This document shows positions 1,503 to 60,477 of a stretch of 64,000 nt of DNA, piece after piece. Position 1 is the stretch's first letter. Every line of letters begins with the position of its first letter. The notes beneath the pieces were generated by a model. That model did no database searches and had not been told where the DNA came from. It saw only the letters and a list, made by a program, of their open reading frames with translations. The stretch comes from Pseudohongiella sp. (GTDB lineage Bacteria > Pseudomonadota > Gammaproteobacteria > Pseudomonadales > Pseudohongiellaceae): NCBI GenBank assembly GCA_030651695.1, contig JAUSCD010000033.1, positions 62,001 to 126,000 on the forward strand, in the 5' to 3' direction. The translations under genes were made by a program, and so were the position numbers.

Positions 1503-1846
1503 AGTGTTGGTCTCTGTAACTTCTGTGGCCAAACAGCCTGAATGACTCGGAACTACGCACAGCATACGCCATCGGGCCACTAAAATGGTGTCAAAACCCT
1601 AGCAATTACAGGGCATTCGTCCTGTCAAACGCGGCATTCACAGCAAGCTGTAACAAGAGTTTTCAGGAACATCAAATCTGCCACATTTCTGACAGATTTC
1701 TCTTCCATTACGCTATTCTTGGCATAGACTTCTAGCTGGTTTAACGTAACGCGACATTTTTTCCGTCTCGCGCCGGTTAATTATGTTTTTCCGACGGCTA
1801 CGAAAGCAGTAATAGCAGCTTTTTTTATGAATCAGCGGGGCACGTT
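1503..1846. other. Divergent intergenic region between efflux adaptor and speB
   Basis: This 344-bp gap separates divergently transcribed genes, so it should hold both promoters. A nested, imperfect inverted repeat is visible at 1741-1780 (TTAAC and CGCGA pairing with TCGCG and GTTAA), followed by a T-rich stretch. A second weak stem with a run of seven T lies at 1803-1827, just before speB. These could be a leader or attenuator for the polyamine genes, but pairing is too weak to call a terminator. No reading frame here looks like a gene. Confidence 0.4.
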
Positions 1847-2797
1847 ATGAGCACATGGGACAACGCGATCACCGGCACACCGGGTACCGGGGCTGTCAAT
1901 TCGCACAGCTTCGGAGGCGCGGTCAGTTTTTTCCGCACACCGTTCGGCCGCGACCTGACGGGCATTGATGTTGCCGTCATGGGCATTCCGCTGGACATTG
2001 CAGTCACCAACCGTTCAGGTGCCCGTCTTGGCCCCCGGGCTATCCGCAATGCTTCAATGTCGCTGGCATGGGAGCGGCCCTGGCCATGGAAAACAGATCC
2101 TTTGCAGGCTCTGAAAGTTGTCGACTATGGTGACTGTGAAAACAAAAGCGGCGGTGGTCTGACCAGCGTCAAACACATTGAAGGCTGGGTTGATCAGATC
2201 CTCGATGCAGGAGCCGCCGCGCTTTTGCTGGGGGGTGATCACTTCATCAGTTACCCAAGCCTGCGCGCACACTTTAAAAAACACGGTAAAATCAGCCTGA
2301 TTCACTTTGACGCGCACACTGACACCTGGCCAAGTTCCGGTGAAGGCATCAATCATGGCACGATGTTTTATCAGGCAGCCAAAGAAGGCATTGTCGATCC
2401 TGCTACGTCAATACAGATCGGCATTCGTACAACCAACGACGACACCCTCGGTTATGAAATTGCCTCAGCCACTGATGTGCATGAGCAAAGCATTGCCGCC
2501 ACTGTCAAACGGGTGCGTGAGCGTGTTGGTAACAACCCGGTTTACATAACCTTTGATATCGATTGCCTTGATCCTGCATTTGCACCCGGCACCGGCACCC
2601 CGGTCCCGGGTGGCCTGAGCTCGTTTCAGGCACTCAGCATTATTCGCGGGCTGGTGGGTATCAATCTGATTGGCATGGATGTGGTAGAAGTGGCACCTGC
2701 CTATGATCACGCCGAAATGACTGCACTGGCGGGTGCGCAGATTGCCATCGAATTGCTCGCTCTGTACGCCGAATGTCGTGCCGCACACGCTCTTTAA
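1847..2797 (+). CDS. speB: Agmatinase (agmatine ureohydrolase)
   Basis: Ureohydrolase of the arginase/agmatinase family, 316 aa. It would hydrolyse agmatine to putrescine and urea in the cytoplasm. All six manganese ligands of the family are present: H132 in GGDHF, D155, H157 and D159 in FDAHTDTW, and D237 and D239 in FDIDCLDP. The C-terminal GTGTPVPGGLSS stretch is also typical. The gene lies 12 bp upstream of an arginine decarboxylase, which makes agmatine, so agmatinase is favoured over arginase, guanidinobutyrase or proclavaminate amidinohydrolase. The two genes form a self-contained arginine-to-putrescine operon, with the second enzyme of the pathway encoded first. Confidence 0.88.
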   Translation: MSTWDNAITGTPGTGAVNSHSFGGAVSFFRTPFGRDLTGIDVAVMGIPLDIAVTNRSGARLGPRAIRNASMSLAWERPWPWKTDPLQALKVVDYGDCENKSGGGLTSVKHIEGWVDQILDAGAAALLLGGDHFISYPSLRAHFKKHGKISLIHFDAHTDTWPSSGEGINHGTMFYQAAKEGIVDPATSIQIGIRTTNDDTLGYEIASATDVHEQSIAATVKRVRERVGNNPVYITFDIDCLDPAFAPGTGTPVPGGLSSFQALSIIRGLVGINLIGMDVVEVAPAYDHAEMTALAGAQIAIELLALYAECRAAHAL

Positions 2798-2809
2798 CAA
2801 GGAATCCTG

Positions 2810-4762
2810 ATGACCGATTTAACTGCAAAAAATGGCCCGAAATGGACTGTCGAAGACGCTCAGGAACTGTACGCACTGGACACTTGGGGGGATGGTTTTT
2901 TTAGCATCAATGACAAAGGCCATGTCAGTGTGCGCCCTATTGAAGGCCAGGACATATCGGTAGATCTTATCGATGTTGTAGAAGAAGCATTACAGGAAGG
3001 TTCAACTCTGCCCCTGCTGGTCAGGTTTCAGGATATCATCAGTTCACGCGTGAAAAAGTTGAACCGCAAGTTCCGCGAAGCCATTGAAGCAGCGGAATAC
3101 GAAGGCCGTTACCGCAGCATTTTCCCCATCAAAGTGAATCAGCTGCACGAAGTCGTAGCCGAAGTTCTGGACGCCGGCAAGGAATTTGATATCGGGCTGG
3201 AGTGTGGTTCAAAAGCCGAGTTGATGGCCGCGTTGCCTCTGGTTGGCTGTGAAACACTGTTGCTGTGCAATGGTGTAAAAGATCACGTTATGCTGACCAT
3301 GATGCTGAACGCACAACAGATGGGTCAGCAGGTCATTCCGATTATCGAAAAGTACTCGGAATTTGACCAACTGATGATTCTGGGCGAACAACGTCAGCAG
3401 GCACCGAGACTGGGCGTACGCGTAAAATTGAATACACGTGGCGCCGGCCGCTGGTTTGAATCCGGCGGTTCACGCTCAAAATTCGGTCTGACAATTCCGG
3501 AGCTGGTACGACTGGTCAGCGAACTGGAAAAGAAGAACATGCAAAACTCGCTGGAGCTTTTGCACTTCCACCTGGGCAGTCAGATTTCTGATATTCAGGT
3601 GCTGCGCGCAGCCGTAAAAGAAATCACCCATATTTATGCCGAACTGATCAAACGCGGTGTCGCAGTCAGGTTTCTGGATGTTGGTGGTGGCCTTGGGGTG
3701 AACTATGGCGGCGACTATGACAATCCCGAATCGTCCATCAACTATGGTTTGCGTGAATACGCCAACGTGGTGGTGTACGCGGTAAAAGAAATCTGTGATG
3801 AACGCGGTGTTCCCTGCCCGACCCTGTTATCGGAAAGTGGACGTGCGCTTACCGCACATCACTCCATGCTGGTAATACCGGTACTGGGCGTACACCGACC
3901 AGACAGCCCGCCGGTCAACGATCTGCCGCCGGACTCGCCATCGGTCGTCGCACGCATGGAAACGTCATATCAGGAAGCCTGTGCCACCGATGTCACCGGA
4001 ATCCTGCTTGAGTGTTATCACGACGCACAGGAAGCCCGACAGGAAGCCGACCAAATGGCGCGTCTGGGTTACCTGACGCTGGATCAGATGGCACATACCG
4101 AAAGCATGTACTGGAGCACCTGTCGTGAAGTGCTGCGCAAACTGATTGCAGCCGACCTGACGCCTCCGCCCAATGAACAGCTGGAACTGGAAGAGCAACT
4201 GACAGATTTGTATCTGTGCGATTTCTCCGTTTTTCATTCCATCATCGACCACTGGGCAATTGAACAGGTATTCCCTGTGCTGCCGCTGCACAAACACACC
4301 CAGCGTCCTGAGCGCCGGGCACAGGTAGTCGATCTGACGTGCGACTCTGACGGAAAAATTGATCAGTATGTGGTAGGCAGCGGCAACACCAGCTGGTTGC
4401 CATTGCACAAACATCAACACGGCGAGCCGTATTACATCGGCATTTTTCTGGTGGGTGCGTATCAGGAAATTCTGGGTGATGCCCATAACCTGCTTGGCCG
4501 CGTGGATGAAGTCCACGTATACGCCCGCGAGGACGAAACCGGCAACTTCTGGATCGAGGAAACCCTCAAAGGCATCAGCACCAAGGATATGCTCAATCAG
4601 GTTCAGTACTTCCCCAATGACCTTGATCGCCGAATGACCGAACTGGTGCGCAAACAGATCAACGCAGGCGTAATTAAACCTGCGGAAGGCACACGTATTT
4701 TGAACAACTATACAAAACGCCTGGAAGAGAGTACTTATTGCACCACCGAGGTTGTTCGGTAG
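2810..4762 (+). CDS. speA: Biosynthetic arginine decarboxylase
   Basis: PLP-dependent, fold-III arginine decarboxylase making agmatine for polyamine synthesis, 650 aa, close to the usual length of the SpeA family. The PLP-binding lysine is K108 in YRSIFPIKVNQ. The family features LLHFHLGSQ, FLDVGGGLGVNYGG and LLSESGRALTAHH are all present in order. The start ATG is preceded by an AAGGAA-type ribosome binding site and is separated from speB by only 12 bp, so the genes are surely cotranscribed. No spermidine synthase or ornithine decarboxylase is encoded nearby. Confidence 0.93.
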   Translation: MTDLTAKNGPKWTVEDAQELYALDTWGDGFFSINDKGHVSVRPIEGQDISVDLIDVVEEALQEGSTLPLLVRFQDIISSRVKKLNRKFREAIEAAEYEGRYRSIFPIKVNQLHEVVAEVLDAGKEFDIGLECGSKAELMAALPLVGCETLLLCNGVKDHVMLTMMLNAQQMGQQVIPIIEKYSEFDQLMILGEQRQQAPRLGVRVKLNTRGAGRWFESGGSRSKFGLTIPELVRLVSELEKKNMQNSLELLHFHLGSQISDIQVLRAAVKEITHIYAELIKRGVAVRFLDVGGGLGVNYGGDYDNPESSINYGLREYANVVVYAVKEICDERGVPCPTLLSESGRALTAHHSMLVIPVLGVHRPDSPPVNDLPPDSPSVVARMETSYQEACATDVTGILLECYHDAQEARQEADQMARLGYLTLDQMAHTESMYWSTCREVLRKLIAADLTPPPNEQLELEEQLTDLYLCDFSVFHSIIDHWAIEQVFPVLPLHKHTQRPERRAQVVDLTCDSDGKIDQYVVGSGNTSWLPLHKHQHGEPYYIGIFLVGAYQEILGDAHNLLGRVDEVHVYAREDETGNFWIEETLKGISTKDMLNQVQYFPNDLDRRMTELVRKQINAGVIKPAEGTRILNNYTKRLEESTYCTTEVVR

Positions 4763-4801
4763 CGTATTTATTGACAGTCATGTTCCTGATGGTGAACTCA
4801 T

Positions 4802-6517
4802 ATGAAAGCTGACTACCTGCCAAGGCCTGCGTTGTTAAAGGCATCTGCCGTTATATTTTCAATCACCTTGCTTGCTGCCTGCAGCCCGCCAGCAACGCAA
4901 ACAGAAACAGCGACCGAAACAGTTGCAGCTGCAAATCCAGGCAGTCTGATAGAGGCTGAATTACACCAGCACATCGCGGTGCTGGCATCAGATGAATTTG
5001 GCGGTCGCGCACCTGCAACGCCAGGTGAAAAACTGACCACGGACTATTTGCAGCAGCAATTTGAGTTGCTCGGTATACAGCCTGGCAACGGCGACAGCTA
5101 TTTGCAATCAGTCCCGGTAACAGAAATTACCGTCACTAATACCCCTACCCTGAGTTTACGCGGCGGCGATTATATTGCTGACCTGAGTTACGCAGATGAG
5201 ATGGTCGTCGCCACCTATCAGGAAACTGACTCGGTGGAGCTGGTCAACAGTGAAATGGTGTTTGTTGGCTATGGCATTGTTGCACCCGAGCGCGGCTGGG
5301 ATGATTACGCCGGGGTGGATGTGCGTGGCAAGACTGTGGTCATCCTTGTTAATGATCCGGGTTATGCAACACAAAACCCGGAACTTTTTAACGGTAACGC
5401 CATGACCTGGTATGGGCGCTGGCCTTACAAATACGCCGAAGCCGCGCGTCAGGGCGCGGCCGGTGCGTTGATCATCCACGAAACCGGTGCCGCCGCGTAC
5501 GGCTGGGATGTGGTACGTAACAGCTGGACCGGCTCGCAAATTGTGCTGAGCAATGAGCAATCGGTTGCCAACAACAGCGCGGTGATCGGCTGGCTGACCC
5601 AGGACTCGGCACGACATCTGTTTAATGGCGCCGGACTGAATTTCGATGAATTGGTCAGCGCCGCTGCGCAGCCGGATTTCAGAGCAGTGCCTTTGAAAGA
5701 TATTCGCGCCAGCACCAGCTTGCGCAACAATGTTCGCAACTCATCGTCCAATAACGTGATTGCAATGATTGCGGGTACAGAACGCCCGGATGAAACCATT
5801 ATCTACACAGCGCATTGGGATCACCTCGGCACCAATCCGGATTTACCCGGCGACAACATCTACAATGGTGCCGTCGACAATGCTGCCGGCACAGCTGCAT
5901 TGCTGTCGCTGGCAAGAGAATTTTCGCAACATCCGGAACCGCCGAAACGATCAATAGTTTTCCTCGCCGTCACTGCCGAGGAATCGGGCTTGCTGGGGGC
6001 ACAGTGGTACACCGAAAATCCGGTATTCCCGTTAAGCAAAACAGTCGCAAATATCAATATTGACGCACCCACGGTCAGTGGCCCGATGAACGATATTGTG
6101 GTCATTGGTTACGGCAACAGCGAGCTGGAAGACTATCTGCGTGAAGAGCTGGTCAACCAGCCCGGGCGTTATGTGGTCGCTGAACCCCACCCGGAGCGCG
6201 GCTCCTATTACCGCTCTGACCACCTGAATTTCGCTCGCCAGGGGGTACCCGCTCTGTACGCCAAATCGGGGCAGGACAGCGCCGAACACGGCCCGGAATG
6301 GGGTGCTGCACAGGCCCAGGACTACGTTGACAATCGCTACCACTCACCCGCTGATGAGTATGACCCTGCCTGGGATCTTAGCGGCACCGTGCTGGATATC
6401 GAGCTGTATTTTGCTATTGGCCATCGGCTGAGTCAGGAAACACTCTGGCCAAACTGGTATGAAGGCAACGAATTCAAAGCGATTCGCGATGCCAGTGCTG
6501 CGGAGCGTTCTGAGTAG
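4802..6517 (+). CDS. M28 family zinc metallopeptidase, lipoprotein
   Basis: Predicted exported aminopeptidase or carboxypeptidase, 571 aa. It begins with a lipoprotein signal (ITLLAAC, Cys27). A protease-associated (PA) insert around residues 140-290 precedes and partly interrupts the catalytic domain. Zinc ligand motifs of family M28 are visible: TAHWDHLG, GAVDNAAGTA, and the general-base pair in AVTAEESGLLG. A later SYYRSDHLNFARQGVPALY supplies the last histidine. The enzyme probably works at the cell envelope on peptides; specificity cannot be read. It follows speA by 39 bp but has its own signal peptide and unrelated function, so cotranscription is possible rather than certain. Confidence 0.88.
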   Translation: MKADYLPRPALLKASAVIFSITLLAACSPPATQTETATETVAAANPGSLIEAELHQHIAVLASDEFGGRAPATPGEKLTTDYLQQQFELLGIQPGNGDSYLQSVPVTEITVTNTPTLSLRGGDYIADLSYADEMVVATYQETDSVELVNSEMVFVGYGIVAPERGWDDYAGVDVRGKTVVILVNDPGYATQNPELFNGNAMTWYGRWPYKYAEAARQGAAGALIIHETGAAAYGWDVVRNSWTGSQIVLSNEQSVANNSAVIGWLTQDSARHLFNGAGLNFDELVSAAAQPDFRAVPLKDIRASTSLRNNVRNSSSNNVIAMIAGTERPDETIIYTAHWDHLGTNPDLPGDNIYNGAVDNAAGTAALLSLAREFSQHPEPPKRSIVFLAVTAEESGLLGAQWYTENPVFPLSKTVANINIDAPTVSGPMNDIVVIGYGNSELEDYLREELVNQPGRYVVAEPHPERGSYYRSDHLNFARQGVPALYAKSGQDSAEHGPEWGAAQAQDYVDNRYHSPADEYDPAWDLSGTVLDIELYFAIGHRLSQETLWPNWYEGNEFKAIRDASAAERSE

Positions 6518-6531
6518 AAAGTCACCACAAA

Positions 6532-7419
6532 ATGAAAACACTCCGCATATTGCTGACTTTTTCGACCGCGCTGCACTTACTGGGTTGGTGCAGCACGGTT
6601 TTTGCTGAAACCGGATCTGCCCTGAGCCTGTCAGTCAGCTACCACAACAATATTCCAAACGCGGTGAGTGAGCCGGATATATTCGGCGACAGCTTTACGG
6701 ATATAAACTACCGGCTGGATCGCTTTTTTGTCGCCAGCCCCGGTAATCGCCTGTCTGTAGGCACAACACTGAGGGCACGCCAATACCGCCACTCTCAGGG
6801 CCTTGAAAGTATCAGTGCCGGGCTGGCGATGGCATATAGTCATCGGGCCGGTCTGGGTGCATATGCACCGCGCTTTAATATAAGTTTTGAACTAGCCCGA
6901 TACGAATTCAGCGAAGCCATCCGGGATGCCTGGCTCGCATCGCTGGACATGAATATGAGTAAACGCATCAGTCCTGAGTGGCTATTGACGCTGGGACTGT
7001 TGTTCGAGGATCGTGATGCCAAAACCCGCTCTGAGCTTCAATTCAGACCGGACTTTACTGCAGGTGTTTTTGACCAGAAATCCGCAACAGTCAGCGGGAG
7101 ACTTGACTACACATTGCCCAATTACTCTTTGCTGAGTTTTGGATACCGGTTTCGCGACGGAGACATCGATGCCAGCTCCCGCCCCGGATCACCGCTGTTG
7201 CGGGTAGCAAAGGCCATTGCCCGCGACACCGGACTGGGAAGAAACTACGTGGCATACCTGATCGAAGCCAGAAGCCACAGTTTCAGCGTGGACTGGGCGG
7301 TTGCAGTGACTGATAATTCAAGTATCGGAATCGGTTATCAACGCTCAATAGCCGATGCTGGTCGCGGCATTGAATATGACCACAACAACGTTCGCGCGGA
7401 ATATACCCTGCGCTTCTGA
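6532..7419 (+). CDS. Predicted outer-membrane beta-barrel protein of unknown function
   Basis: Protein of 295 aa with an N-terminal signal peptide ending near VFAETG. The rest is a series of alternating amphipathic strands and ends in an aromatic residue (AEYTLRF), the usual C-terminal signature for outer-membrane insertion. I do not recognise a named family. The gene lies 14 bp after the M28 peptidase and 13 bp before a cupredoxin-like secreted protein, so these three probably form one operon with envelope functions. Confidence 0.6.
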   Translation: MKTLRILLTFSTALHLLGWCSTVFAETGSALSLSVSYHNNIPNAVSEPDIFGDSFTDINYRLDRFFVASPGNRLSVGTTLRARQYRHSQGLESISAGLAMAYSHRAGLGAYAPRFNISFELARYEFSEAIRDAWLASLDMNMSKRISPEWLLTLGLLFEDRDAKTRSELQFRPDFTAGVFDQKSATVSGRLDYTLPNYSLLSFGYRFRDGDIDASSRPGSPLLRVAKAIARDTGLGRNYVAYLIEARSHSFSVDWAVAVTDNSSIGIGYQRSIADAGRGIEYDHNNVRAEYTLRF

Positions 7420-7432
7420 CAGGATCGCTGAT

Positions 7433-8098
7433 ATGCACCTGAAAACAACTGCGTTCGCGGCCCCCCGGATTATTGTGCTGGCTTTTTTGTTCGCGCCATC
7501 GCTGACTGCGGGTGAACTGGAAGTCGTATTCAAAGATGACAGTGGCCAGCCGATCGCCAATGCGGTGGTTGAGGTAATATCGCCAGAGGTTTCTCTACCG
7601 CTGGGTCTCGCACTGACCGGCATGATGGACCAGGTTGATAAAGAATTTGTTGGCCCGGTATTGCTGGTTGTGCAAAACAGCCTGGTTCAGTTCCCTAACA
7701 GCGATGATATCCACCACCACGTCTATTCTTACTCCGACACCAAACGCTTTGAATTGCCTTTGTATACCGGCAACACAGCTGAGCCGGTGCTGTTTGATAA
7801 GGCTGGGGTTGCAACCATAGGCTGCAATATTCATGACTGGATGGTGGGATACATCTACATCAGCCAGACGCACCTGGCTGCGCTATCCGACAGTGACGGT
7901 AGAGCGGTACTCACGGAACTGGATGCTGGCGAGTACAAATTCAGAATCTGGCACTCACGCATAAAAAACAGGGATCAGGCCACTGAGTACACCGTGATTG
8001 TCCCGGAATCAGGCACATTGCAGATGGCCCTTGAATTGGAACTTAATCCGGATCGCCGAATTCGCAGGGCGCCTGTTTCAGGCAGAACAAATTATTGA
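7433..8098 (+). CDS. Secreted cupredoxin-like protein (methylamine utilisation protein-like)
   Basis: Secreted protein of 221 aa with a signal peptide of about 24 residues. It contains an Ig-like or carboxypeptidase-regulatory-like segment (GELEVVFKDDSGQPIANAVV) and a cupredoxin-type copper motif: a histidine cluster (IHHHVYSY), then C-x-x-H-x-x-M in IGCNIHDWMVGYIY. Proteins of this type are often labelled methylamine utilisation or plastocyanin-like, though there is no methylamine dehydrogenase here. The upstream reading frame opens at 7355 inside the previous gene; the ATG at 7433 is chosen because it begins the signal peptide. It may shuttle electrons or bind copper in the periplasm, which is inference. 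Confidence 0.65.
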   Translation: MHLKTTAFAAPRIIVLAFLFAPSLTAGELEVVFKDDSGQPIANAVVEVISPEVSLPLGLALTGMMDQVDKEFVGPVLLVVQNSLVQFPNSDDIHHHVYSYSDTKRFELPLYTGNTAEPVLFDKAGVATIGCNIHDWMVGYIYISQTHLAALSDSDGRAVLTELDAGEYKFRIWHSRIKNRDQATEYTVIVPESGTLQMALELELNPDRRIRRAPVSGRTNY

Positions 8099-8105
8099 GG
8101 GTGTT

Positions 8106-8933
8106 ATGACAGCAGGACGCAGCAATTTTGATGCAATGGTGGCCAAATGGAATACAGATGGTTATCTGGTTCTACCCGGTTTCTTCGATAATAAACGCAT
8201 TGCCCGCGTCAATGACCTGGTCGATGAACTGTGGGACTCGCGCGCCGCCAAACCCAATCAGCTGATTATTGATACATTTCTGGGGACTCCCGAAACTCGA
8301 CGAACACGCTTTTCCACTGTCCCGGATCAGGTGCGTGAATCTCCTTATAAACTGAATGATCTCTATCTGGACTATGAGGATGTCAGACAAGTCGTGTTGG
8401 ACAAAGAACTGGCGAAAATTGTGGGTTTGTTGCTTGGCGGCAAAGCGCTGGTCTTTAATACGCTGAATTTCGAATATGGCTCCGGGCAAGACGATCATGT
8501 AGACACGTTCTACATGCCACCAAAACAAGCCAATCGGATGCTGGCTAGCTGGATGGCGCTTGAAAATATTTCCCCGGACTCCGGGCCGCTACGCTACTAC
8601 CCAGGCAGCCATCTGATACCTCCGTATTTGTTTTCAAACGGTAAGACCAATGTTATTGGCGCAGAACTGCCGGCGTTTTACAGCTATATGAAGCTGGAAC
8701 TGGAAAAAAGAGGAATTGAGCCGGTGAGTTTTCTGGCCGGGCGCGGAGATGTATTCATCTGGCATGCCCAGTTGTTCCATGGAGGCACACCCATCATTGA
8801 CCCGCAACAAACACGTCGCTCACTGGTGACGCACTATTACCGCACAGCAGAATACAGACACTTGTTCTGGCGGCTCAAAAAAGTCAATGAGCACGGGTAT
8901 TACTACAGGCGGCCACATCAAACACCGCATTGA
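8106..8933 (+). CDS. Phytanoyl-CoA dioxygenase (PhyH) family protein
   Basis: Non-haem Fe(II)/2-oxoglutarate dioxygenase fold, 275 aa. The iron-binding facial triad can be read as H131 and D133 (DDHVDTFY) and H225 (QLFHGGTPI). An arginine for 2-oxoglutarate binding follows in TRRSLVTHYY. The ATG at 8106 has a GAGGG-type ribosome binding site and sits 7 bp after the cupredoxin gene, so it may be translated from the same message. The substrate is unknown: PhyH relatives act on CoA esters, ectoine, phosphonates, halogenated metabolites and others. Confidence 0.8.
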   Translation: MTAGRSNFDAMVAKWNTDGYLVLPGFFDNKRIARVNDLVDELWDSRAAKPNQLIIDTFLGTPETRRTRFSTVPDQVRESPYKLNDLYLDYEDVRQVVLDKELAKIVGLLLGGKALVFNTLNFEYGSGQDDHVDTFYMPPKQANRMLASWMALENISPDSGPLRYYPGSHLIPPYLFSNGKTNVIGAELPAFYSYMKLELEKRGIEPVSFLAGRGDVFIWHAQLFHGGTPIIDPQQTRRSLVTHYYRTAEYRHLFWRLKKVNEHGYYYRRPHQTPH

Positions 8934-32130: not shown

Positions 32131-32934
32131 CTATGCGATGACTGTTCTCAACATCTGCAATGCCAGCACAATGATCAGTGCTGCAAATAATTTCTTAAGT
32201 GTGGCAACTGGCAGCTTGTGTGCCAGCCTTGCACCCATCGGGGCGGAAAAGAGACTGGCGACTGCCATGGCCAATACCGCCGGCCAATAGATAAAACCCA
32301 ATGTGTACGCTGGTAAACCAGCCGTGCCCCAACCATTAAGCAGGTATCCAAGAGCACCCGCCAGTGCAATCGGCAAACCTACAGCAGCCGATGTGCCAAT
32401 TGCTGTCTGCAGGCGGACGTTACACCAGGTGAGAAATGGCACCGTCATGGTGCCGCCGCCGATCGCGACCAAAGCAGAGATTCCGCCAATGCCTGCGCCT
32501 GCTGCAGACAACCCTGCCAGACCCGGCAGCTGGCGTGAGGGACTTGGTTTTCTGTTCAGCACCATCTGCGCGGCTACATAAGTCATAAAAATACAGAAAA
32601 ATATAGCAAGTGGGCGTGGTGACAGAGCAGCGGCAAGAAACGTCGCTGCAAAAGTTCCCACCAGAATACCGGGTGCCAACCCGCGTACCGCCGGCCATAA
32701 CACTGCGCCATGCTTATGATGTGCATTCAGACTGGATAGCGAGGTGGGAATAATGGTGGCCATGGAGGTACCCAGCGCCAGATGCACAACATAATCCGGC
32801 GCAAAACCCTGGGCAGCAAACATGACAGTCAGTACCGGCACCATGACAGCGCCGCCGCCTATACCAAACAGACCGGCCAGAAATCCGGTGATTACACCCA
32901 GCAGCACATAGGCTAACAACCACAAGTCCAACAT
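32131..32934 (-). CDS. TauE/SafE family sulfite exporter-type permease
   Basis: Membrane permease of 267 aa with about eight transmembrane helices. Family repeats are visible: GVITGFLAGLFGIGGGAVMVP near the N-terminus and GIGGISALVAIGGGTMTVPF in the second half. TauE/SafE proteins export or import sulfur-containing anions (sulfite, sulfoacetate, taurine products). No sulfur metabolism genes are adjacent, so the substrate is open. Confidence 0.88.
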   Translation of the reverse strand: MLDLWLLAYVLLGVITGFLAGLFGIGGGAVMVPVLTVMFAAQGFAPDYVVHLALGTSMATIIPTSLSSLNAHHKHGAVLWPAVRGLAPGILVGTFAATFLAAALSPRPLAIFFCIFMTYVAAQMVLNRKPSPSRQLPGLAGLSAAGAGIGGISALVAIGGGTMTVPFLTWCNVRLQTAIGTSAAVGLPIALAGALGYLLNGWGTAGLPAYTLGFIYWPAVLAMAVASLFSAPMGARLAHKLPVATLKKLFAALIIVLALQMLRTVIA

Positions 32935-58575: not shown

Positions 58576-58989
58576 CTAGTCGGCAACCGGTTTGCCACGC
58601 AAGGACTTGACGGTAGACACCTTGCGTTTACTCTCGAGGCGCTGACGTTTTTGCGACTTCGGTATGCGTGTGGCGAGCCTTGGCGGCGCGACTTCGCAGG
58701 CTTTTTCGATCAACGCTTTAAGGCGCTCGATGGCGTCTTCGCGGTTTTTCTCCTGTGTGCGGAAACGCTGGGCCTTTATCACAATAACCCCATCGGCGCT
58801 CATGCGGCGATCGCGTAATGCCAACACCAGCGCTTTCACATCGTCAGGCAAGGAAGAAGCAGGCACATCAAAACGCAAATGAATGGCAGATGACACCTTG
58901 TTGACATTCTGGCCGCCTGCGCCTTGCGCCCGGATCGCTGACAAATCAATATCCTGGGCCAAAATATAATCTGACACTGTCTTACTCAT
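58576..58989 (-). CDS. arfB: Alternative ribosome-rescue peptidyl-tRNA hydrolase ArfB
   Basis: Class I release-factor-like protein of 137 aa. The GGQ motif is at residues 25-27 ([20 protein letters not shown]), and the C-terminal tail is very basic ([18 protein letters not shown]), inserting into the empty mRNA channel of stalled ribosomes. It releases peptides from non-stop complexes. The ATG at 58989 is preferred over the longer frame, which runs into the promoter region of the candidate small RNA. Confidence 0.93.
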
Positions 58990-59161
58990 CAATAAAACCT
59001 TATTTAGACAATACGCTGTCATCATGCACGCTGATGATGCCCCAGCCTGGTGCGCTGGCGTTGAAAAAGAACCAAAACGATACTGACCTGATCTGGCGAA
59101 TATGCCGATACCAACCCTGTTAACCACCCAAAATTGCACGAAAAATTTATTTAAATATAAA

Positions 59162-59208
59162 TATCAAACACTTATTTTTATCGGCCAAAAGCTGGCATAG
59201 CGTATGCA
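59162..59208 (+). promoter_or_regulatory. Sigma-54 type promoter with IHF-like site
   Basis: TGGCATAGCGTATGCA (59193-59208) keeps the invariant GG (59194-59195) and GC (59206-59207) with exactly ten bases between, close to the TGGCAC-N5-TTGCA consensus. TATCAAACACTTA (59162-59174) is a full match to the IHF consensus WATCAANNNNTTR and lies in AT-rich DNA about 50 bp upstream of the expected start. That is where IHF bends DNA for an enhancer-bound activator. No activator site was identified. Confidence 0.7.
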
Positions 59209-59218
59209 TTATATAAAT

Positions 59219-59330
59219 CAAGCATCAGCATTCCCCTGCTGATGGCTTGAATGGAATTGACTCTCCCCTTTTCCATTGATGGGTGATAATTCGCCCACGT
59301 ATGAGCCAAGCTCCACGTGGGCTTTTTTTT
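59219..59330 (+). ncRNA. Candidate sigma-54-dependent small RNA or attenuator leader
   Basis: Starting at the predicted +1 (about 59219), 112 nt can form three stems. Stem 1 is 59218-59229 with 59238-59250 (one bulge, loop ATTCCCCT). Stem 2 is AATGGAA (59250-59256) with TTCCATT (59271-59277, loop with CTCTCCCCTT). Stem 3 is the intrinsic terminator. Both apical loops carry a CCCC run, which could pair with GGGG or AGGAG of ribosome binding sites. It encodes no protein. An alternative reading is a regulated 5' leader of the nuclease gene 133 bp further on. Confidence 0.6.
59293..59330 (+). terminator. Intrinsic terminator of the candidate RNA
   Basis: GCCCACGT (59293-59300) and ACGTGGGC (59315-59322) form a perfect 8-bp stem with a 14-nt loop, followed directly by eight T (59323-59330). 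No coding gene ends immediately upstream on this strand, which is what points to a non-coding transcript. Confidence 0.93.
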
Positions 59331-59463
59331 GCCTGGCATCTATGTTCAGTTCTGCCCTCGTCTTGCTTAGTCTCAACTATACCCTAACAATAAAACAGCA
59401 CACAGCCAGCAATGTTCTGGTCTGTTACACTGTGCGCCTCGCATTTATGCCACAGGCCCATTT

Positions 59464-60477
59464 ATGTTCTTGTATTGCCAAAAATTAAAGCTTGCCAGCG
59501 CGATGTTCGCGGGCCTTGTGGCAAGTCTGATGGCAACCGGTGTTACCGCATGGGATGCCACCGGGCACCGACTGACGGCATACGTCGCTTGGGAATTCAT
59601 GTCAGAGCAGTCCAAAGAACGAACACTGACTATCCTGCGTTCACATCCAAGGTTTGACAGAGATTTTCTGAATGCTATGCCGGACAACGTCCGTGCTACC
59701 GACATGAGGCAACAGGATCGCTGGTTGTTCGGCCAGGCCGCCATCTGGCCTGATCTGGCGCGGAGTTTTTCGGGTGCTGACAGCCGCCGTTACGATCATC
59801 CGGAATGGCACTGGGTCGATGGCGCGTGGGTGCGCGACGAAGCGACTCGTCAGGGCAACCTTTACGTCAATACCGAGGCCTTTGCTGACATCGAGGGAAT
59901 TCCTGCAGAGCGCGTGCAGCGTCGCTCACAGGCGGAAAATGTGGTTACTGCCATTGACCTGGCCGTGTATGAAATGAGTCATGCCCGGGATCCGGCAGAA
60001 CAGGCTCTGGCGCTGAGTTGGTTTTTGCACCTGACCGGGGATATTCATCAGCCACTGCACACCGGAGGGCTGGTCTCTGCACGGATGTTTTCAGACGGTG
60101 ATCGTGGCGGAAATGGCATTCGAGTGCGCTCAGGGAGTACCGGGAGCAATTTACACGCAGTATGGGACGGAGCCTTACGCGGACCAACATTGGAAACATC
60201 TTTGCGGATGCTCATTGATATTGCTGGAGACATTGCTGCCAACAAACAACTTGCTGAGTACGCACCCACCCGGTGGTTGCAGGAAAGCCGTGACTACTTG
60301 CTGAGCAGCGTGTACCCGGACACCGTCATCAGCAACGTACTGCGCAGTGAGAACACCGGCAATCAGCCCGGAACCATTACGCTCAGCGAAGCGTATGAAG
60401 AACAGATGCGTATGATCGCTGCGCAGCGTATCGCCGAGGCCGGCGTCAGGATAGCTAACACACTGGGGAATTTATGA
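59464..60477 (+). CDS. S1/P1 family nuclease
   Basis: Exported zinc-dependent nuclease/phosphodiesterase of 337 aa. Mature protein starts with the conserved Trp (W30 in TAWDATGHRL), whose amino group is a metal ligand in this family. Other ligands lie in FLHLTGDIHQPLHTGG, GDRGGNGIRV and NLHAVWDGAL. It would degrade single-stranded nucleic acids or 3'-nucleotides in the envelope or outside, for phosphate or nucleoside scavenging. It overlaps the next gene by ATGA. Confidence 0.9.
   Translation: MFLYCQKLKLASAMFAGLVASLMATGVTAWDATGHRLTAYVAWEFMSEQSKERTLTILRSHPRFDRDFLNAMPDNVRATDMRQQDRWLFGQAAIWPDLARSFSGADSRRYDHPEWHWVDGAWVRDEATRQGNLYVNTEAFADIEGIPAERVQRRSQAENVVTAIDLAVYEMSHARDPAEQALALSWFLHLTGDIHQPLHTGGLVSARMFSDGDRGGNGIRVRSGSTGSNLHAVWDGALRGPTLETSLRMLIDIAGDIAANKQLAEYAPTRWLQESRDYLLSSVYPDTVISNVLRSENTGNQPGTITLSEAYEEQMRMIAAQRIAEAGVRIANTLGNL

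Follow-up and report, generated by a model that had tools for sequence, protein, structure and literature searches.

Between arfB and an S1/P1 nuclease gene, the window (the whole 64,000-nt stretch of DNA that was analysed, from a marine bacterium of the genus Pseudohongiella) contains a real and apparently undescribed RNA gene, with homologues that have a conserved sigma-54 promoter in several genera of one family (Pseudohongiellaceae). As to function, we favour with some confidence a stand-alone small RNA of nitrogen limitation, driven by NtrC and sigma-54, whose anti-Shine-Dalgarno loops repress mRNAs in trans with Hfq. NtrC bound at about -173 would activate sigma-54 RNA polymerase at a TGGC-N9-GC promoter, and transcription would end at the T8 terminator, giving an RNA of about 112 nt. 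Its two hairpins would present single-stranded C/U-rich loops (UUCCCC and CUCUCCCC), complementary to G-rich Shine-Dalgarno stretches. By base-pairing with ribosome-binding sites, aided by Hfq, these loops would lower the translation of several mRNAs for as long as nitrogen is scarce. The gene, promoter, hairpins, terminator, loop conservation, NtrC-type site and the genes for NtrC and Hfq come from reading and comparing sequences; coordinates are collected in Table 1.

Table 1. Positions of the RNA gene, its parts and its neighbours in the window
Feature	Position	Strand	Remarks
arfB, divergent upstream neighbour	58576-58989	-	NCBIfam ArfB, 170 bits (cutoff 100); flank only
NtrC-type site TGCCCCAGCCTGGTGCG	59038-59054		centre about -173 from predicted start; 12 of 14 letters of the assumed consensus
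IHF-like sequence TATCAAACACTTA	59162-59174	+	exact match to WATCARNNNNTTR
sRNA unit, promoter to terminator	59193-59330	+	RNA of about 112 nt, two hairpins, T8 terminator
Sigma-54 promoter TGGCATAGCGTATGC (-24/-12)	59193-59207	+	GG-N10-GC, equivalent to TGGC-N9-GC; relatives
Hairpin 1	59219-59249	+	apical loop UUCCCC 59231-59236; predicted folds
Hairpin 2	59250-59277	+	stem AAUGGAA 59250-59256 / UUCCAUU 59271-59277; loop with CUCUCCCC 59261-59268
Linker GATGGGTGAT	59278-59287	+	alignment; alternative fold
Intrinsic terminator GCCCACG...CGTGGGC	stem 59293-59322, T8 59323-59330	+	read directly and terminator scan
Extended -10 box TGTTACACT (also noted as TGNTACACT)	59423-59431	+	before the S1/P1 nuclease gene
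S1/P1 nuclease gene, downstream neighbour	59464-60477	+	Pfam PF02265

Taken alone, the sigma-54 motif is not above chance in the 64-kb window (15 sites with at most one mismatch, 18.9 expected), and the IHF-type matches (seven, 3.9 expected) were likewise taken as not above chance. As neither motif exceeds chance by itself, the case for an RNA gene rests on relatives. In these, the GG-N10-GC promoter named in an earlier note on this DNA proved to be fixed in position, the same box being found at the corresponding place in all 15 loci of the genus. The IHF consensus match claimed there is indeed exact over 13 bases, but only in the window's copy; at most one mismatch is seen in just 8 of 27 homologues, the window included, so the match stood while its conservation did not.

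The transcript is predicted to start at or near 59219, at the foot of hairpin 1 (12 nt counted from the C of the -12 element). The stable hairpin at this start, the second hairpin, the C-rich apical loops and the eight-T terminator, all pointed out earlier, are readily seen in the sequence, and the hairpins and terminator are kept in relatives. Stretch 59162-59330 folds at -57.2 kcal/mol, compared with -37.3 for shuffled sequences (z -4.9), and z is -4.5 for 59220-59330. In the minimum-energy fold of the latter, which is the window's RNA, a CUCUCCC/GGGUGAU pairing displaces hairpin 2; in the fold of the longer stretch, hairpin 2 does form. Minimum-energy folds without both hairpins were obtained for three sequences (L001, which is the window's own, L039 and L041). 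Despite this alternative, hairpin 2 is supported because of its covariation across relatives. The linker is almost unvarying within the genus and reads GGGURAU in most homologues of the alignment; its possible pairing partners are loop 2 and the GCCC of the terminator.

A nucleotide search of 56 genomes detected the RNA in 15 of 15 genomes of the genus, with weak matches in two others of the family. We built a covariance model (R1) of the transcript only, from 16 sequences of Pseudohongiella (g1) and g7, leaving the promoter out. Across 137 genomes of the family it gave 29 matches with E<=0.05 and recovered the RNA in g5 and g4, both outside the training set. A second model (R2, 27 sequences) gave 31 matches with E<=0.01 in the family. 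Altogether, 27 homologues were accepted: 15 from Pseudohongiella, one from g7, ten from g5 and one from g4. Outside these counts, L095 (g4, box at -49) is a probable 28th homologue, of which L045 is a cut version, and L094, lacking the box, is uncertain; a match in genome G116 is likewise left out of the counts. Alignment A2 was re-run at E<=0.001, and two spurious rows were removed from it.

Seventeen non-training matches were inspected for the promoter. TGGCA[CT]-N7-GC was present upstream of all ten with E<=1e-5; measured from the model start, it lies at -24 to -26 in nine and at -49 in L039. Because the promoter had been left out of the covariance model, the box in these strong matches constitutes independent support. 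Among the seven weaker matches, the box was found only in L044 (E 0.006, at -27), which was accepted. It was absent from the expected place in L045-L050, including L047, a second match in its genome (G075) with a better E value than L044 (6.5e-4). Twelve candidates (L046-L050, L096, L098, L100, L101, L103, L104 and L106) were rejected by eye, as only the terminator was shared and no sigma-54 box stood at the right place.

The stems of the homologues covary. In the structure-fitted alignment A3, 90.3% of cells were paired, compared with 69.4% in shuffled and 28-40% in slid alignments, and changes on both sides were seen in 21 of 27 pairs; none of 500 shuffles reached these values for paired cells and changed pairs. 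In the MAFFT alignment A1, which was not fitted to structure, both-sided changes affected 12 of 27 pairs (4.9 in shuffles), hairpin 2 being nearly invariant within the genus and hairpin 1 partly misaligned there. Every modelled pair of hairpin 1 (12/12) is changed on both sides in some homologue, and so are six of seven pairs of hairpin 2 across the family, with 95.9% of cells paired. The stem of hairpin 2 reads AAUGGAA/UUCCAUU in the genus versus a GCGGAUC/GAUCCGC type in most of the g5 copies that adjoin an nrtA-like gene, and loop 2 retains CUCUCCCC or a close variant while the stem is replaced. By eye, a C/U run of at least six was assigned to hairpin 2 in all 27 homologues and to hairpin 1 in 25; the latter run is absent in L013 (loop 1 CUCAAC) and was not found in L039. 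Terminator stem and T run occur in all 27. Thus the comparison of relatives, which could have revealed neither stems nor promoter conserved, revealed covarying stems and a conserved -24/-12 box.

For nitrogen control, upstream regions were scored against TGCACCA-N3-TGGTGCA, which we take to be the NtrC consensus. Two sites in the window score at least 12, the one upstream of the RNA being one of them. A dyad scoring at least 10/14 was present upstream of all 27 homologues, the best downstream scores being 8-10; individually, 19 of the 27 sites reached shuffle P<=0.05 and eight were not significant. In 10 of 15 genus loci, the centre of the top-scoring site falls at -172 to -174. In a blind count of 4-N-4 dyads, GCAC-N7-GTGC was the commonest, occurring in 8 of 17 chosen representatives (shuffle maxima 4-5), a count inflated by shared ancestry. 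By the same consensus, glnA is preceded by two sites together with a TGGCAC-type box, and the histidine kinase gene adjoining ntrC by a single site. The source genome encodes NtrC (751 bits, cutoff 559) and Hfq, and carries eight strong sigma-54 activator domains, of which one is that of NtrC and others match NorR and PspF above cutoff. Of the nitrogen, carbon or quorum-type control proposed earlier, the upstream dyad and the NtrC gene point to nitrogen, the one of the three for which binding sites were sought: such control is well supported at the sequence level, and induction by nitrogen limitation would be expected. An apparent second sigma-54/NtrC pair in the window, at about 32383-32454, was set aside since it lies within a coding frame.

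The genomic setting differs among genera, and it bears on a cis-acting alternative, in which the RNA is an attenuated NtrC/sigma-54 leader and a second signal lets transcription pass its terminator into the gene behind (the nuclease in the window, nrtA- or nasA-like genes in g5). We regard this as fairly unlikely for the RNA as a whole. All 15 genus loci do have the nuclease gene downstream in the orientation of the RNA (arfB, upstream and on the other strand, was detected by tblastn in eight of them), and the possible pairing of GGGURAU with the terminator would also suit an attenuator. Against this, 14 of 15 genus loci have a TGNTANNNT extended -10 box no more than 200 nt past the terminator; in 13 it reads TACACT, TATACT or TAAACT (counted without a shuffle control). 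The nuclease gene therefore probably has its own sigma-70 promoter, which argues for the RNA being a separate unit in Pseudohongiella, although some read-through may occur. Likewise, in g4 copies L113 and L114 the next gene is convergent, so that these RNAs, which keep the CUCUCCC loop, are unlikely leaders and seem to stand alone. In g7 the nearest start lies about 290 nt from the RNA. An attenuator would moreover leave the loop conservation in free-standing copies in need of another reason.

The evidence for an attenuator is strongest in g5. In seven of the ten accepted copies of this genus (loci L034-L038, L040, L041, L110 and L111) the RNA has a nasS-like gene on one side and an nrtA-like gene on the other, and in the remaining three (loci L042, L043, L044, L249 and L250) it directly precedes a nasA-like gene. 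Only 27-105 nt separate the terminator from the first matched codon of the next gene, presumably leaving little room for another promoter; with gaps this short, the g5 RNA is likely to act as a leader. The L110 cluster (G029, 1812-8739) encodes a response-regulator/ANTAR (nasT-like) protein, two NMT1-type binding proteins, a permease and an ATPase that exceeds the nitrate ABC transporter cutoff (337 bits, cutoff 292). In L111 (G018) the order is the same, a nasS-like gene, then sigma-54 box and RNA, then an nrtA-like gene directly after the terminator. An ANTAR (nasT-like) domain was found within about 2 kb in all seven g5 genomes with an nrtA-like neighbour; none was found in the three with a nasA-like neighbour, which are 76-90% complete. 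The nasA-like product, full length in two of the three, is a molybdopterin oxidoreductase of 880 residues and carries a 2Fe-2S tail of BFD type, which NasA of Klebsiella also has. No NCBIfam name was assigned above cutoff, the highest scores coming from models of formate dehydrogenase and of assimilatory nitrate reductase, and the nasA-like naming is thus to be read as probable.

A further possibility is that the RNA is a decoy or target of an ANTAR antiterminator of NasR/NasT type, which would bind a pair of hexaloop mini-hairpins having A1 and G4. Two such hexaloop hairpins are required in ANTAR sites, according to excerpts of PMC3369931. With the linker set at about 5-12 nt in our search, all 15 RNAs of the genus can form GGA[AnnGAC]UCU and UCC[AUUGAU]GGG, 7-8 nt apart; in a core that otherwise varies little, positions 2-3 of the first loop do vary, g5 copies adjoining nasT-like genes have GGGU[AAUGUR]GCCC, and 10 of 15 genus genomes possess an ANTAR domain. 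We nevertheless consider this very improbable: the mini-hairpin stems have just three pairs, including G-U, the hexaloop pair occurs in none of the 12 homologues outside the genus, and five of the 15 genus genomes, including the single-contig G009, retain the RNA although no ANTAR domain was found in them. Besides, the mini-hairpins exclude the covarying hairpin 2 and do not overlap the terminator. By analogy with CrcZ, the RNA might not pair with mRNAs but titrate Hfq or some other RNA-binding protein, as sigma-54 control and repeated single-stranded pyrimidine loops would permit. CrcZ motifs are A-rich, however, and motifs of this type are not the conserved feature here, nor is a C-binding partner known, which renders titration highly unlikely. 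Finally, the statement that the region contains no coding sequence holds only in part, as an ORF of 70 aa (59276-59488) begins within the RNA and an 11-codon frame (ATG GAA ... GGG TGA) spans its core. That translation of this short frame accounts for the conservation is extremely improbable and was largely refuted. By eye, it is open in 13 of 15 genus sequences, but L002 and L006 have TAG at codon 3, L006 also has a 1-nt insertion, the frame is changed in L016/L033, and no such frame was seen in g5.

Anti-Shine-Dalgarno action in trans is the most likely mode, and it is in keeping with C/U-rich loops that are conserved while stems change, a feature of this class of RNAs. Hfq binding, translational repression and a set of targets would all be part of it. 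As for targets, GGGGAGA-N3-9-ATG sites numbered 14-20 per genome in seven genomes of the genus once duplicate entries in two of them had been taken out (6-16 for the reversed-pattern control). An ORF of 45 aa or more begins at 75 of the 124 sites in all. The best clusters comprised proteins that, from their sequences, we take to be ETF-QO-like and FleN-like, each in only three of the seven genomes, and the scan returned no gene conserved in at least four of the seven. The proposal that the RNA pairs with G-rich ribosome-binding sites thus agrees with the conserved C-rich loops, but was not matched by a conserved target.

Outside the family, R2 gave three matches with E<=0.001 in 369 genomes of the class (about 0.4 expected by chance), all weak (28-32 bits) and from three other families (L244, L245 and L246, about 1501-1620). 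Two adjoin an engB-like GTPase gene, itself beside a cytochrome c gene, and the third lies between polA and a cytochrome c gene, which is the neighbourhood of ErsA. Each folds into two hairpins with C-rich loops and a terminator. Neither a TGG[CT]-N9-GC box within 90 nt nor an Rfam match was found for any of them; GGAACTTT, presumably an ECF-like promoter element, occurs upstream of two. Their resemblance to the Pseudohongiella RNA may reflect ancestry or convergence. In 390 genomes of the order, R2 gave 17 matches with E<=0.01. Nine come from other families and, judged by eye, have only the terminator in common, save L099, L102 and L097. L099 and L102, from one genus of family f42, have a sigma-54 box, GGGTAATG and a terminator without hairpins 1 and 2, and L097 has an imperfect TGGCA box only. 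A short sigma-54 unit with GGGTAATGAAGCCC and a terminator, again without the two hairpins, was also noted in L115 (G213, about 4816-4905; f42), as well as in L102; that of L115 precedes porin-like and nasT-nasS-like genes.

It is possible, and we suggest it only tentatively, that a single module of two anti-Shine-Dalgarno hairpins and a terminator under NtrC/sigma-54 serves as a free trans-acting sRNA in Pseudohongiella and g4, while in g5 nitrate-uptake and probable nitrate-reductase genes have it as their attenuated leader. A nitrogen sRNA would then have been recruited into an operon leader or have escaped from one, and the module may share ancestry with the ErsA-type RNAs of polA-engB loci. 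The link with nitrate operons is the most surprising part of this analysis; leader placement in a related genus was not foreseen in the earlier note. The two settings, free gene and leader before nrtA- or nasA-like genes, offer a natural comparison for the conversion between leader and sRNA in either direction.

In line with the earlier description of the RNA as undescribed, Rfam searches at gathering and loose thresholds gave sub-threshold matches only, and no family at gathering score. The best were RsaE (18.8 bits), Betaproteobacteria_toxic_sRNA (16.4) and OmrA-B (16.4), with gathering scores of 79, 50 and 40 bits, respectively; these likewise combine a C-rich stretch with a terminator. Plasmid and viral collections contained no match to the RNA, and the open-licence literature yielded neither a publication on it nor an sRNA study of Pseudohongiella. 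With it, Pseudohongiella would gain a nitrogen-stress sRNA family, one that appears to combine an NtrC/sigma-54 switch like that of NrsZ with an anti-Shine-Dalgarno loop design like that of NfeR1.

NrsZ of Pseudomonas, according to excerpts of two reviews, is likewise an sRNA with a gene of its own, expressed through NtrB/C and RpoN when nitrogen is limiting, but it is 226 nt long, is processed, adjoins ntrC and acts through ACAGGCAG. This motif is absent from the 112-nt RNA, whose arfB/nuclease locus is on contig C23 while ntrC is on C30, and the order-level genome scans gave no match recognisable as NrsZ. The nirBD leader NalA of Pseudomonas, in the sections of PMC12830290 that describe it, resembles the g5 copies in being an NtrC/sigma-54 RNA that ends in a terminator before nitrate/nitrite genes. 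It is subject to NasT antitermination, whereas none of the ten g5 copies has the two-hexaloop ANTAR motif, and in the window no nitrate gene follows the RNA. ErsA of Pseudomonas occupies the polA-engB intergenic locus (PMC5819304 and PMC8575079, in part). Set against that locus and a sigma-22-type promoter, the Pseudohongiella RNA has another locus and a sigma-54 box; in its source genome, the polA and engB-like frames overlap, so that there is no room for an ErsA-type RNA between them. NfeR1/alpha-r14 of Sinorhizobium, as far as it is portrayed in parts of PMC10746234, shares several hairpins, an ultraconserved C-rich anti-Shine-Dalgarno loop, variable stems and a tie to NtrC and nitrogen. 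It differs in having three hairpins with identical CCUCCUCCC, a sigma-70 promoter, activation by LsrB and repression by NtrC (same source, in part), compared with two C-rich hairpins, CUCUCCCC, a sigma-54 box and no Rfam match in Pseudohongiella; exact CCUCCUCCC is absent from the C/U runs of the 27 homologues. Our best reading is that the Pseudohongiella RNA acts in the manner of NfeR1 or ErsA, with a control and a sequence different from theirs.
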